The notes beneath the pieces are model-generated. The model saw only the letters and a list, made by a program, of their open reading frames with translations, ran no database searches and was not told the DNA's origin. The position numbers were made by a program, and so were the translations under genes. Of a stretch of DNA of 29,702 nt, positions 4,640-25,241 are shown piece after piece (position 1 is the first letter of the stretch; the number at the start of each line of letters is the position of its first letter). Origin of the DNA: a virus. The stretch lies in the IMG/VR virus record IMGVR_UViG_3300007512_001628, positions 1-29,702 of that record. One strand, given 5' to 3'.

Positions 4640-4643
4640 AGTG

Positions 4644-5657
4644 ATGAAACTTATAATGGAAAACTGGCGCGATGCTGTCGCTGAAGACGCAGCCCATACC
4701 ACGTACCTTCAAAACAGAGCAGTCCTCCTCTCGGACCCCCAGTATGTTACTGAAGTCTTGGGAGTTCAAATACCTCTTACCGAGGCTTACCCGTGGTCCC
4801 CCACACTAACAGAACAGATTATTCAAGAGCAACTGCTGTTTGAAGCCTTCTGGGATCCTGTTGTTGCCTGGGGAAAGGCAAAAGCTGGCGATGCCGCCGA
4901 CAAGGTCAAGGAGATGGCTCAGTCGGCTGCCGCGTGGGGGAAAGACTTTGCCAATACAATGCTAATGATTTATAAAGCCATCGCCGGCGGCAAGCTGCGT
5001 ACCTATATGAAGGGACTTATGAGAACTGCTATTAACCCCGTAAAAAATCTTCTGTTTGGGTTTTTGGATCTCCTTATCAATAAGGGACCTGAGTGGGGGA
5101 TGCCGACTTTTGCGAAGTGGGCAGAGAAAACGAAGCAGCTAATAGAATCTGGAATTGCCGGGCTAGCCAACCTTGATGGGTGGAAAAAGGCTCTTGGGCT
5201 TACCACCCTGGCTCTTGGGCTTGCGTGGGTAAAAAATCAGATCGGCGAACAGGTAGAAGGCATTATAAAAGTTGTAAAAGAGAAATTAGGATTTGTATAT
5301 GATATCGCAGCTGGGGCGTGGAGTGGTGCACAAGAGACGGTCACTGAAGTTGATCCCCGCGTAAGCGGCGCCGCCCGCGGCGTCGTTAGTGCCGGCGCAT
5401 CCGCAGTCATTGAGCAAGTAAAAGAGGCGATCACCAAGCTAGTACAGGAAAAGGTTAAAGGAGCTATCGAGGGGATCTTAGGAAAAGCATTGTCCGCGGC
5501 ATCTGCTGCCTATGGAAACGTTACTGAATGGGTTAATCAAGTTAAGAAGATCTTCGGCGGAATGGACTTTGTTAAAAAGGCACTAGCTTCTGTGCTCAGC
5601 TTCTTTGCTGCCCGCGGCGGAATGAACGAAAACATTTTAATAGAACAAAACCCTTGA
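4644..5657 (+). CDS. Long helical protein, probable virion or assembly protein
   Basis: About 337 residues starting MKLIMENWRD. An in-frame GTG at 4641 adds one residue, but ATG is preferred. The protein is Ala- and Lys-rich and mostly helical, with weakly hydrophobic helices near residues 140-150 (LLFGFLDLLI) and 185-200 (ALGLTTLALGLAWV). Amphipathic repeats follow (VKEAITKLVQEKVKGAIEGI). It ends with a short polar tail. The opening MENWR...E resembles the N-termini of several long proteins I associate with large marine myoviruses, and it is echoed by NKWKDYV at the start of the gene at 21215. There is no ribosome-binding site, only the CTATTTATA box just upstream. The stop codon lies inside the -35 box of the next promoter. 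I do not recognise an enzymatic domain. A virion-internal or membrane-active role is a guess. Confidence 0.7.
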   Translation: MKLIMENWRDAVAEDAAHTTYLQNRAVLLSDPQYVTEVLGVQIPLTEAYPWSPTLTEQIIQEQLLFEAFWDPVVAWGKAKAGDAADKVKEMAQSAAAWGKDFANTMLMIYKAIAGGKLRTYMKGLMRTAINPVKNLLFGFLDLLINKGPEWGMPTFAKWAEKTKQLIESGIAGLANLDGWKKALGLTTLALGLAWVKNQIGEQVEGIIKVVKEKLGFVYDIAAGAWSGAQETVTEVDPRVSGAARGVVSAGASAVIEQVKEAITKLVQEKVKGAIEGILGKALSAASAAYGNVTEWVNQVKKIFGGMDFVKKALASVLSFFAARGGMNENILIEQNP

Positions 5658-11175: not shown

Positions 11176-11736
11176 ATGATTGAACTACCGAGTCCAAGAA
11201 AGCGTACCTTGTATTTGTCCTCCCAAGTAACTCAAAAATCCATGAATGACTTGACTAAAGCGATTGTGGACATTAACGCCGACGATCGTTATCTACACCG
11301 CCTCTATCAAGTCCACGATATAGATTATAAGCCTAAGCCCATTCACCTATATATTGATTCCTACGGCGGAGCGGTGTATCAGTGCATGGGGCTTCTAGGA
11401 GTTATGGGGAAGAGTGAGACCCCCATTCATACTATCGTTACGGGAGCTGCAATGTCTTGCGGTTTTATGATACTTATTTGTGGGCATGAGCGCTTTGGAT
11501 ATGTTCATTCCACCCCCCTCTATCATCAAGTATCGACGGGCTTTTATGGAAAAGTAAAAGACATGGAGGAGAACCTTGAAGAGACGAAGCGCCTACAAAA
11601 GAAGATTGAAGAGATCACTGTAGCAAAAACCAGGATTAGCGAGAAGAAGCTTAAAGAGGTTTTAAAAAACAAGACTGATTGGTTCATGACTGCTGCTGAG
11701 GCTCTCTCTTTAGGAGTTATAGATAAAATACTATGA
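11176..11736 (+). CDS. clpP: ClpP-like serine protease, paralogue 1
   Basis: A 186-residue ClpP/crotonase-fold protease with a full catalytic triad: Ser94 in TGAAMSCGF, His117 in PLYHQVSTG and Asp168 in NKTDWFMTAAEA. The oxyanion-loop region IHLYIDSYGGAVYQCM and the closing ALSLGVIDKIL are also typical. It lacks a signal peptide, so it acts in the cytoplasm. It is translated with a Cys-rich small protein through an ATGA overlap. AGGGAG at 11165-11170 precedes the ATG. In large phages such ClpP homologues may degrade host or phage proteins with host ClpX or ClpA, or may work alone in capsid maturation. No phage unfoldase is in this window. A second, quite different ClpP is encoded at 15112, so the two probably have separate jobs. 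Confidence 0.9.
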   Translation: MIELPSPRKRTLYLSSQVTQKSMNDLTKAIVDINADDRYLHRLYQVHDIDYKPKPIHLYIDSYGGAVYQCMGLLGVMGKSETPIHTIVTGAAMSCGFMILICGHERFGYVHSTPLYHQVSTGFYGKVKDMEENLEETKRLQKKIEEITVAKTRISEKKLKEVLKNKTDWFMTAAEALSLGVIDKIL

Positions 11737-15111: not shown

Positions 15112-15729
15112 ATGTTTACCAATAATGAGAGTCCCGAGGAAGAGACTGCACCTAACGACGAACCACACATGATCGGACCAGCACACGAGGAAGACCCGCC
15201 CCTGATGGGGCTTGTCGGAGATATCACTGAAGAGGCTGCACAACAGATGGCTATGTCGCTACTGAGTTACAATGGCGGCAAGATCGTGGCTTCTAGAGAA
15301 GACTTAGACGATACTGTCGATATTGAGTTTCTTATATCCTCCGGGGGAGGCTCGGTCAATGACATGTTTACCGTTTATGACCTTATGCGGATAGTGAAGT
15401 CCAACCGTGACATTGCCACTTTTGGCTATGGACGCGTATACTCCGCAGCCGTGCTGCTACTAGCAGCGGGTACCCGAGGCAAGAGGCATATCGCGAAGAA
15501 CGCACGAATGATGATCCATCACTGCTCTTCTAATGCTGGCGGCACCCACCCAGATATCCGAGCCAACTTTGATGAACTCAAGAAGGTGGAAGACATGATG
15601 GTGGAAGCCCTTGCAGAGCACAGCGCCCTGTCGGTAGGGGAGATTTACAACATCATGTCCCGCAACACAGATGAATTTTTCTCAGCTGAGGATGCATTAG
15701 AAATGGGTCTTGTTGACAAAATCATCTAA
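15112..15729 (+). CDS. clpP: ClpP-like serine protease, paralogue 2
   Basis: A 205-residue ClpP-fold protease with an intact triad: Ser111 in GYGRVYSAAVLLLAAG, His136 in ARMMIHHCSS and Asp187 in RNTDEFFSAEDALEMG. ISSGGGSVNDMFTVYDLMR is the standard Gly-rich oxyanion segment. An acidic extension of about 30 residues (ESPEEETAPNDE...) precedes the fold (MGLVGDITEEAAQQM) and is not in paralogue 1. The two share little beyond family motifs, so this looks like separate descent rather than recent duplication. It stands between a membrane protein and long virion-type genes and 500 bases after the acidic scaffold-like gene, so a head-maturation protease role is plausible. Host-protein degradation with host ClpX is the alternative. 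The start directly follows the previous stop. Confidence 0.9.
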   Translation: MFTNNESPEEETAPNDEPHMIGPAHEEDPPLMGLVGDITEEAAQQMAMSLLSYNGGKIVASREDLDDTVDIEFLISSGGGSVNDMFTVYDLMRIVKSNRDIATFGYGRVYSAAVLLLAAGTRGKRHIAKNARMMIHHCSSNAGGTHPDIRANFDELKKVEDMMVEALAEHSALSVGEIYNIMSRNTDEFFSAEDALEMGLVDKII

Positions 15730-22897: not shown

Positions 22898-23062
22898 AAT
22901 CAGAAGTTCTTCCGTCAAAGAGGGTTTGCTTCCTAATTACTAATAGACAAACGGGTTAGAAAGGACTCAAGGTTGTATGCAAAGTAATGCGTCCCACGGG
23001 AGTGTGCAGGTAACGATACGGTGATGTAGTGGTAAGGTAACCCTAGACACGAGGGGATACGC
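22898..23062 (+). other. Longest gap (165 bases), no gene seen, possible translational hairpin
   Basis: No reading frame of note fits. The stretch contains CTAATTACT (22933-22941), a GTAGTGGTAA string (23026-23035) that looks like a tRNA D-loop, and CCCT (23041-23044) that can pair with AGGG (23052-23055) and so cover the GAGGGG ribosome-binding site of the next gene. I find no T-arm, so it is not an intact tRNA, and no consensus promoter. It may hold a promoter that does not fit sigma70, or a small RNA. Confidence 0.5.
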
Positions 23063-23896
23063 GTGCTTAGGTGGATTAAAAGTTTTATAATAATAGCTTC
23101 TTTACTTTCAGTAAGTTGTACCACCCCCGTTTTACCTTCTAATTCTAATTCTCAACCAGTAGAAATACTAAAAACTCAAGATACAGTTGAGGTCCGCACA
23201 GCTTTCGGAGAAGTTCTGGAAGTTTTTGACGCGCACCACCTATCTATCACAGAACAACGAGCACGATCGGCCGCCGTTAAGGTAAGATCCTTATTGCAAG
23301 GCGGTCATGGATCGGGAACTTATATGGTTGCCCACGGCCGCCGCGTCGTCGTTACTGCCGCTCACGTCGTCCGGAACGAGAGCGTCATGGCCATTGATGG
23401 TCGCGATGGCGAAACGGTCGTGGGCCAAGTTGTTTTTGTGGATCACGATGTGGACATTGCTTTTGTTGTAGTCCCCGAGATGGAGACACGCACGGCGATT
23501 CGATACCGCCCCCAGCGCCGCTATGATGAGCGCCTTGTGGGAACCACTCTTACCTATACCGGCTTCCCCTCTCACCACGATCTGCTTACCATCCGGGGCT
23601 ATATTGCCGCAGTGGAAAAGGAGCACTTAGTAACCAATATGTTCGGCTGGTTCGGCTCCTCAGGTTCCGGAGTTTTTGATCAGCACGGGCGTTATATGGG
23701 ATGCGTCTCGGGTATTGATATAGGGAGCATGGGCTTCGGAGTGCGTATCCCGCTGGAATCTATCGTTTGGGTTGCTCCTGTGAGCATGCTAGACCATGAG
23801 ATGGTAAAGATACGGATTATAACTTCGGTAGTGCCACAAACCATTAATGCCTTCCCCGGTGCAAGAGCACCGAGAAGGGGGGGACTAAGGGACTGA
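23063..23896 (+). CDS. Secreted trypsin-like serine protease (probable lipoprotein)
   Basis: A 277-residue protein of the chymotrypsin/DegP-like fold without a PDZ domain. The triad is His101 (VTAAHVV), Asp131 (DHDVDIAF) and Ser200 (GSSGSG). The N-terminus has a short positive start, a hydrophobic core (FIIIASLLSV) and Cys19, a loose lipobox (SVSC), followed by a Ser/Asn/Pro linker, so it is exported and possibly lipid-anchored. It starts with GTG, supported by GAGGGG at 23051-23056, six bases upstream. A Pro/Arg-rich end follows the domain. The next gene is another lipoprotein with a VWA domain, which suggests they act together at the host envelope: cleaving a surface or periplasmic protein, superinfection exclusion, or prey or host signalling. 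Phage-encoded exported proteases of this class are rare in my knowledge. Confidence 0.85.
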   Translation: MLRWIKSFIIIASLLSVSCTTPVLPSNSNSQPVEILKTQDTVEVRTAFGEVLEVFDAHHLSITEQRARSAAVKVRSLLQGGHGSGTYMVAHGRRVVVTAAHVVRNESVMAIDGRDGETVVGQVVFVDHDVDIAFVVVPEMETRTAIRYRPQRRYDERLVGTTLTYTGFPSHHDLLTIRGYIAAVEKEHLVTNMFGWFGSSGSGVFDQHGRYMGCVSGIDIGSMGFGVRIPLESIVWVAPVSMLDHEMVKIRIITSVVPQTINAFPGARAPRRGGLRD

Positions 23897-23900
23897 TGGC

Positions 23901-24965
23901 ATGAAGCGGATCTTCCCTCTCATTGTATTAGCCGCCTGCTTCGTGTTTGGGTGCGAGGGGGACTATACGATTTATGATATGCACCCGCCCGAGATCGTCG
24001 AAGTGGAAGTTCCAGTAGAGGTTCCAGTTGAAGTAATTGTCGAAGTTCCAGTAGAGGTTTTGGTCGAAGTCCCCGGCGAAGGCGGCGATGTTTGGATCGA
24101 CTCTTTTGATCAGCCCTATACCATCGATGGCATTGATATTGTATGGCTCATTGATAAGTCAGGCTCGATGAATCAGCATGCCCAGTCGGTTGTCGACGGG
24201 ATAGAACAGATGATGCTATCGCTGCCGCCTTCTGGCTGGCGCTTAGGGATTACTACCACCGCGTGGCAGAACTCCGCGAACTCTTCGTACTTCCCCTTGG
24301 TCCCAGGTGATAGCGTCCAGGATGCGTGGGATGCCTATAACAACACTGGAAACTATGGACTAGAAGCGGGCTTCGACGCATTATACTCTTACCTGGTAGA
24401 AAATTCATATAATCAATCTTGGCTGCGCCCCGACGCTGGGCTACTTGTCGTCTTTGTAAGTGACGAAAATGACCAAAGCTTTCGCGACTTTACTTCAAAC
24501 GCATCTGGCTTGCAGGACTTTATTAATTGGTACGGAAATCAAAGACCCTCAGTATTCTTGGCCAGCATTGTAAATATTCACCGCACAGAGAACGACTGTA
24601 CCAACAATATCCCTCCAACTTATGTGGGGGATCGTTATATGGATGCCACCAACGCATTCGGCGGAGTCGTTGTAGACATCTGTTCGGAAGACTGGGCGCC
24701 CGGAGTTCAAGCAGCGACCACACAAGTCGAGCCCTATGAAGAGTGGGAGCTAACCTTTACACCTATTGAGGATACATTGATTGTTTTTGTAGATTCTGTG
24801 GTGATGCCGGCTAATGATTGGCAGTACAACGTCGTCACAAATAGTGTGGAATTCCTTGTTGTTCCACCAGAAGGGGGACATGTGGAGATTGGTTATGTTA
24901 TTGATTATGATGCTGGCGACGATGATGACAGTGCTGGGGATGACGACGATTCAGCTGGGAGCTAA
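23901..24965 (+). CDS. VWA-domain lipoprotein with VEVPVEV repeats and a DDDDSAG tail
   Basis: A 354-residue exported protein. Its signal peptide (MKRIFPLIVLAACFVFGC) has Cys18 as the lipidation site. Residues about 32-60 are a rigid repeat of VEVPVEV type, with the 18-base unit at 24006-24023 repeated exactly at 24042-24059. A von Willebrand A domain follows, with the MIDAS motif DKSGSM (85-90: Asp85, Ser87, Ser89) and Asp188 in SDEND. The C-terminal part is beta-rich and ends in tandem DDDDSAG repeats. VWA domains bind protein ligands through a metal ion. The repeat stalk and acidic tail recall secreted proteins from Myxococcota and related deltaproteobacterial lineages, so the gene was probably acquired from such a host. 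It probably works on the cell surface with the adjacent protease. Confidence 0.85.
   Translation: MKRIFPLIVLAACFVFGCEGDYTIYDMHPPEIVEVEVPVEVPVEVIVEVPVEVLVEVPGEGGDVWIDSFDQPYTIDGIDIVWLIDKSGSMNQHAQSVVDGIEQMMLSLPPSGWRLGITTTAWQNSANSSYFPLVPGDSVQDAWDAYNNTGNYGLEAGFDALYSYLVENSYNQSWLRPDAGLLVVFVSDENDQSFRDFTSNASGLQDFINWYGNQRPSVFLASIVNIHRTENDCTNNIPPTYVGDRYMDATNAFGGVVVDICSEDWAPGVQAATTQVEPYEEWELTFTPIEDTLIVFVDSVVMPANDWQYNVVTNSVEFLVVPPEGGHVEIGYVIDYDAGDDDDSAGDDDDSAGS
24006..24059 (+). repeat. 36-base-period repeat encoding VEVPVEV
   Basis: An 18-base unit, GAAGTTCCAGTAGAGGTT, is repeated exactly 36 bases apart (24006-24023 and 24042-24059) in the stalk region of the VWA lipoprotein gene. It keeps the reading frame and may allow length change by recombination. 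Confidence 0.8.
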
Positions 24966-24971
24966 CTACTT

Positions 24972-25241
24972 ATGAAGTATAAAAAAGAGGTAATTGTTTT
25001 GAAAGATAAATGGAATCCGGGAGCGCATGACGTACCGGCAGCAAGAACGCTAGAGATGACAGAGGTTGCGCCTGACACTTATATGGACGCACCCTTCCCA
25101 CTCAGCTTAGATGCACAAAAAAGATTGTTAGAGTTAATCTATAACCGGAAGTCAGGTATAATTACTAGACAGGAGTTAATAAATGTTCTCTATAATACAC
25201 AAGATGTTCGCACGGGCACGATCATTCGTTGCCTACTCTGA
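24972..25241 (+). CDS. Unidentified 89-residue protein
   Basis: The protein starts MKYKKEVIVLKDKWNPG seven bases after the VWA gene stop and has no clear ribosome-binding site. Residues about 45-85 (SLDAQKRLLELIYNRKSGIITRQELINVLYNT) are a helical stretch that may form a small helix-turn-helix or EF-like fold, though no metal motif is seen. The last 59 bases overlap the next gene, an unusually long overlap. It could be truncated or shortened by a frameshift. I do not recognise it. Confidence 0.5.
   Translation: MKYKKEVIVLKDKWNPGAHDVPAARTLEMTEVAPDTYMDAPFPLSLDAQKRLLELIYNRKSGIITRQELINVLYNTQDVRTGTIIRCLL

Follow-up and report, generated by a model that had tools for sequence, protein, structure and literature searches.

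Why would a phage genome place an exported trypsin-like protease directly beside a VWA surface lipoprotein, and do the two proteins serve one task? The locus lies in a single virus record of 29,702 bases, which is called the window below. A preliminary description of this DNA had placed two adjacent ORFs with signal peptides at 23063-24965, and both were recovered there. The protease gene (PROT) opens with a GTG codon downstream of GAGGGGA, and the frame of the lipoprotein gene (VWA) opens with ATG on the same strand, 4 nt past the PROT stop. The N-termini of PROT (MLRWIKSFIIIASLLSVSC) and VWA (MKRIFPLIVLAACFVFGC) both read as a signal peptide with a lipobox, LLSVSC (Cys19) in the former and VFGC (Cys18) in the latter, so both products look like lipoproteins. 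Both genes are under purifying selection, with dN at 0.16-0.21 and dS saturated, at roughly 2 or higher. The conserved residues, the Pfam scores and this selection together place both genes far beyond chance. The features are collected in Table 1.

Table 1. Features of the PROT-VWA locus (positions in the window)
Feature	Position	Strand	Evidence
Conserved non-coding leader before PROT	22898..23062	+	Alignments and pattern scan; 12 window-type loci share its blocks; ends in the ribosome-binding site GAGGGGA
PROT, exported PDZ-less HtrA/DegS-type serine protease, 277 aa	23063..23896	+	PF13365 E 2.8e-15; AlphaFold pLDDT 80; DegS-deltaPDZ Z 21.8
PROT signal peptide with terminal lipobox LLSVSC (Cys19)	23063..23119	+	Sequence; no change at Cys19 across 11 close relatives
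PROT catalytic His101 (TAAHVV)	23363..23365	+	Invariant in 25 relatives
PROT catalytic Asp131	23453..23455	+	Invariant in 25 relatives
PROT catalytic Ser200 (GSSGSG)	23660..23662	+	Invariant in 25 relatives
VWA, integrin-like MIDAS/VWA surface lipoprotein, 354 aa	23901..24965	+	PF00092 E 3.7e-6; integrin I domain Z 15.6
VWA signal peptide with lipobox VFGC (Cys18)	23901..23954	+	Cys18 invariant in 25 relatives
VWA flexible stem, VEVPVEV repeats	23955..24086	+	Sequence; 24-60 aa in relatives; pLDDT <50 at residues 17-54
VWA MIDAS motif DKSGSM (85-90)	24153..24170	+	D85, S87, G88, S89 and M90 invariant in 25 relatives
VWA MIDAS loop 3, VSDE (186-189)	24456..24467	+	Invariant in 25 relatives
VWA C-terminal tail GDDDDSAGDDDDSAGS, candidate host-lineage tag	24915..24962	+	Double unit in 6 GTDB assemblies (among the matches listed) and 4 viral contigs
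Small gene 3' of VWA in window-type phages	24972..25241	+	Same order in relatives; missing along with VWA in L076

The complete His/Asp/Ser protease proposed for the first gene is borne out. PROT passes the gathering threshold of Trypsin_2 (PF13365) with 57.7 versus 27.6 bits, and the triad H101/D131/S200 does not vary across 11 close and 25 diverse relatives. For each protein, the window sequence and its relatives in phages served as input for an AlphaFold model. The PROT model matches DegS lacking its PDZ domain (2qf0_E) with a Z score of 21.8 over 186 residues, at 3.2 Å and 22% identity, and the fold search also matched the HtrA family at large; on this predicted fold, PROT has a chymotrypsin-fold protease domain with a His-Asp-Ser triad. 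HtrA, MarP and DegS are its nearest named relatives, and its scores fall far short of the NCBIfam cut-offs (MarP, 32.7 versus 250 bits; DegS, 15.8 versus 423 bits). No PDZ domain was matched by Pfam in the 277 residues; in the predicted model, the protein ends where that domain would start, with a short disordered tail beyond residue ~255. PROT thus resembles the DegS/HtrA proteases (S1C), for example DegS-deltaPDZ 2qf0, in trypsin fold, triad and envelope location, but it has no PDZ domain, replaces the transmembrane anchor with a lipobox or signal peptide, is encoded by a phage and has the VWA gene as partner. The lipobox is present in 15 of the 17 loci with the order PROT>VWA, while the VWA>PROT loci have a plain signal peptide instead.

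The second gene had been described as a metal-binding VWA domain on a VEVPVEV stalk, which stands with one refinement. VWA scores 27.7 versus a cut-off of 23.8 bits for PF00092 and its MIDAS motifs are invariant; at the loop-2 place of the canonical MIDAS threonine, however, it appears to bear an invariant Glu155 (EAGFD/EEGFN), as judged from the alignment by eye. The pair Cys233/Cys261, which would be expected of an exported protein, is as unvaried across the 25 relatives as Glu155 itself. A search of solved structures by sequence profile gave no match for VWA, and the fold search was clear: the model aligns with an integrin I domain (5hj2_C) with a Z score of 15.6 over 183 residues at 3.3 Å. 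The headpiece of β3-integrin, whose I domain sits as an insert within a second β domain, aligns with VWA residues 61-344 with larger deviations (rmsd 7-13 Å), and predicted strands flank the MIDAS domain of the model on both sides (63-70 and 281-334). By its predicted fold, DxSxS motif and loop-3 acidic residue, VWA is a MIDAS/VWA-domain protein. Its nearest NCBIfam model is NF052240, the Bdellovibrio MIDAS adhesins, which it matches far below the cut-off (24.7 versus 700 bits). Like Bd0875 and Bd1483 of that family, VWA combines a lipobox, a MIDAS domain and an additional β-rich part (architecture per PMC11003981); it differs in being phage-encoded and in its VEVPVEV stem, its GDDDDSA tail and its neighbour protease. 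In that family, the MIDAS domain is an insert in a small β domain built from both termini, a layout with which the lipobox and the flanking strands of VWA would be compatible. A further VWA lipoprotein of a phage was seen in L112 at 1429-2706; it has a choice-of-anchor D-like domain and is closer to NF052240 and to the gliding lipoprotein CglD.

The stem between the VWA lipid anchor and the domain is long, variable and disordered, as would suit a protein that PROT itself cuts. PROT might then be a sheddase or activator that cleaves this flexible stem and so releases or unmasks the adhesin, much as proenzymes of some defence systems are activated by a partner protease; protease-substrate gene pairs of such a kind are known (PMC12799240). 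We regard this reading as quite unlikely, as the stem is free in both length and sequence, being short in L038, and no conserved cleavage-like motif was seen in the stems of 25 relatives.

Protein and profile scans of IMG/VR gave relatives of PROT and VWA in 65 contigs, with one locus taken per contig. PROT and VWA are immediate neighbours in 49 of the 65, in the window order PROT>VWA in 17 and as VWA>PROT in 32; as many contigs are fragmentary or nearly duplicate one another, the counts do not represent independent events. The remaining contigs comprise one with the genes on opposite strands 2 kb apart and, within the locus stretch compared, six with VWA only and nine with PROT only. When whole records were searched for the partner, the genes were found 31 kb apart in one 191-kb contig and ~14 kb apart in another, and a third contig has PROT ~30 kb from a distant VWA; whole records of 114 and 185 kb encode VWA without any protease. 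The suggested two-part exported system is therefore upheld as a recurrent pair, kept in both orders and in three contexts, but it is not obligate, given the VWA-only contigs and the separated genes. The terminase family PF03237 was found in 7 of 11 records tested, which marks the carriers as tailed phages, and the longest contigs reach 171-203 kb. The pair belongs to a clade of large, uncultivated marine tailed phages. Neither gene was matched by tblastn in 50,697 described phages of INPHARED, and the nearest described phages by DnaE and GroEL are distant (<60% identity), so these matches give no clue to the host.

The pair stands in three arrangements in different neighbourhoods, each of which was also found with one partner missing. 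In the window type, the row is a gene of the g21212 family, PROT, VWA, a small gene, F8 and HAD, and L076 (compared with L028) has the same row without VWA and the small gene. In the diverged group, the row is F4, F4, F19, F12, VWA, PROT and nudix, and L090 and L094 (compared with L037) have F4, F4, F19, PROT and nudix; the VWA of L094 sits elsewhere in the genome, between F54 and F55. In the 203-kb phage L042, the row is F54, two genes, PROT, VWA, one small ORF and F55, and L047 and L110 have VWA without an adjoining protease. The L042 VWA (group-B) is 78-81% identical to the VWAs of the diverged group, while its PROT is just 31-32% identical to theirs. In the trees, the PROT>VWA phage L042 is nested in the VWA>PROT clade by VWA (98/92) and lies outside that clade by PROT, on a long branch with weak local support. 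A second, distant exported-protease copy was also noted in the L042 record (G005) at 185381-185959, about 155 kb from the pair.

These comparisons bear on simple synteny, in which the genes would be neighbours merely through a gene order inherited by related phages. The whole block is indeed co-linear within the window's group. However, the diverged group reverses the order and has its other neighbours replaced, and L042 pairs a different protease; together with the missing-partner relatives in all three contexts, the L042 trees make inherited gene order alone insufficient, and we consider this explanation very unlikely. The comparisons argue instead that PROT and VWA came to be paired repeatedly, in different phages. 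Either repeated joining or repeated loss beside each other would speak for a shared task, and the repeated pairing thus argues for a joint function, in which PROT and VWA would probably cooperate at the infected-cell envelope. The preliminary description had held that a two-part system would be refuted by a pair confined to unrelated contexts and differing in order; orders and contexts do differ, and the pair persists through these changes, which strengthens the link.

The DNA around the pair was also surveyed. The leader (~130 nt) before PROT holds conserved blocks, TTAGAAAGGACTC..AGGTTGTATGC..GCGTCCC..GGGAGT, in 12 window-type phages. It matches no Rfam family, and its single-sequence fold is no better than that of shuffles, the structure signal being weak. 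No sigma-70-type promoter was found on the + strand directly upstream of 23063, and the window contains no tRNAs. Two different ClpP-family proteases are encoded at 11176-11736 and 15112-15729 of the window, with GroEL, Hsp20 and a protein for iron-sulphur cluster biosynthesis nearby. Additionally, an N-terminal peptide like MK(L)(I/L)xENWR is common to unrelated phage proteins (window 4641-5657, L037 5943-6545 and L069 11479-11943); it could be a targeting or capsid signal.

Because GroEL, Hsp20 and two ClpP proteases share the block and the nearest named relatives of PROT are HtrA, MarP and DegS, PROT might be the periplasmic member of a phage-supplied set for envelope protein quality control, with VWA as a chance or indirect neighbour. 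This seems hardly likely, since the diverged group pairs PROT and VWA in another block that GroEL does not adjoin, and PROT lacks a PDZ domain. A cytosolic conflict or defence system that combines VWA with a trypsin-like peptidase, of the MoxR-vWA-VMAP type or akin to nuclease-protease pairs, is extremely improbable. PROT has PADLOC matches to RT-Protease_XI and to the LmuA protease domain, but they are weak and confined to its protease domain, so that an identity as a defence system was set aside; VWA has no PADLOC match. In MoxR-vWA-VMAP systems, which are cytosolic, a MoxR ATPase and VMAP adjoin the vWA gene (PMC7159879). This identity was rejected as well: no MoxR, VMAP or nuclease partner was seen among the Pfam-scanned ORFs of the block, and both proteins carry export signals.

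The acidic C-terminal tail of VWA, a feature beyond the preliminary description, points to the host. The window tail is a doubled GDDDDSA heptad, encoded as GGC GAC GAT GAT GAC AGT GCT in unit 1 and GGG GAT GAC GAC GAT TCA GCT in unit 2; the two units share one codon only, which indicates that the peptide and not the DNA has been kept. The repeat number in relatives is (GDDDDSAG)1-3, and the doubled heptad was also noted in L113-L192. Among 2.9 million viral contigs, only four have the doubled heptad, and all four carry this VWA family. Two VWA peptide patterns run over genome contigs found no relative, and matches then came from the tail pattern and from whole-genome profile searches. Specifically, a degenerate-DNA search for the tail GDDDDSAGDDDDSA across 84,980 species genomes gave 91 stretches. 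The 80 listed all fall in six assemblies of marine type, whose labels read Deltaproteobacteria or proteobacterium; three of the six are placed in Myxococcota. In these genomes, the heptad is scattered over many proteins as linkers, post-lipobox spacers and C-terminal tails. Among the matches listed, GDDDDSA behaves as a lineage-specific, proteome-wide tag that can serve as a host marker. It is a strong hint that window-type phages infect this narrow marine myxobacteria-like lineage.

Each of the six tagged metagenome-assembled genomes (MAGs) has 7-14 matches to the VWA family profile, some of them full-length proteins (E as low as 3e-30) whose VWA and C-terminal parts are arranged as in the phage protein. 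These lipoproteins join a VWA domain to a C-terminal β domain as the phage VWA does (L209 aligns over positions 59-330 of the 337 in the model), and their proteomes bear the same GDDDDSA tail; many, unlike the phage VWA, have extra Ig-like or choice-of-anchor domains. The PROT matches in the tagged MAGs are HtrA-like proteins, several with DegP-type extra domains, and none of the VWA genes there lies next to a PROT-type protease among the matches listed. The VWA architecture occurs commonly across 235 candidate-host genomes from the same phylum, in which no contig is shared by a PROT and a VWA among the matches listed. A search for the pair beyond the window, as first suggested, therefore finds it in other phages and, among the matches listed, not as a co-located pair in these candidate hosts.

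The host-like architecture and tail would also suit a decoy or mask, in which VWA alone, as a copy from a host adhesin family displayed on infected cells, blocks the attachment of other phages or alters cell-cell contact, PROT being a separate, co-expressed envelope helper. The 114- and 185-kb contigs with VWA and no PROT fit this view, as does the better retention of VWA than of PROT in distant members of the window's group (59-75% versus 43-48%). Repeated independent adjacency of VWA and PROT would not be expected of unrelated genes, however, and we judge the mask unlikely.

The reading that we favour, tentatively and as plausible rather than probable, is a phage-supplied module acting at the infected-cell envelope, in which VWA docks an envelope or surface partner and PROT cleaves or remodels it. 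HtrA proteases choose their substrates via PDZ domains; PROT, a DegS/HtrA-type protease without this substrate-choosing domain, is a predicted lipoprotein in the window's group and carries a plain signal peptide in its diverged-group form, and VWA would supply the docking. With its host-style MIDAS adhesin form, its lipid-anchored flexible stem and its metal site for partner binding, VWA would capture an envelope or cell-surface protein via the MIDAS site and keep it near PROT, which would cleave or remodel the docked protein at the surface or in the periplasm. The likeliest benefit would be that a host surface protein which admits a second phage or traps progeny is removed or masked, and receptor removal would be the likeliest use of the module. 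The preliminary description had proposed superinfection exclusion first, beside cleavage of surface proteins and a prophage-like state; exclusion of a second phage is a possible role of the pair. The exchange of the PROT lipid anchor for a simple signal peptide in the diverged group, and the phages with VWA alone, speak against a tight module. As related support, Bd0875 of Bdellovibrio, a lipobox MIDAS protein of the nearest named family, is observed at the moving predator-prey junction and requires the MIDAS Asp for its function (PMC11003981).

Among known systems, the nearest functional analogy, though not a relative, is vertebrate complement factor B, which combines a serine protease with a docking VWA domain on a single polypeptide; in complement factor B and C2, the VWA domain docks, with Mg2+, a partner for the trypsin-like protease. 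T5 Llp is a small superinfection-exclusion lipoprotein that the phage exports to the host envelope. The pair resembles it as exported phage proteins predicted to act at the envelope, a likeness by description rather than by any demonstrated sequence relation, and T5 Llp is not known to have a protease partner. The PROT and VWA families are each known separately; the literature searched on phage VWA and protease pairs held nothing on point and did not describe phages in which a PDZ-less HtrA-type protease and a MIDAS lipoprotein of host style are repeatedly paired. A more specific proposal, which we hold as doubtful, is that these phages have built a split, targeted envelope protease more than once: a host-derived, integrin-like MIDAS lipoprotein would stand in for the PDZ domain in selecting substrates and steer a DegS-like protease towards one particular surface protein of an infected host related to myxobacteria, its tail being a copy of the lineage-specific host tag.

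Most known phage genes that act at the host envelope encode single small proteins and come from a handful of model phages. An exported protease and an integrin-like lipoprotein that occur clade-wide and appear to have been joined repeatedly offer a concrete, testable partnership. Additionally, the GDDDDSA tail may provide a simple sequence marker for host assignment, which would link the phages of the window's group with a single narrow lineage of marine myxobacteria-like bacteria.
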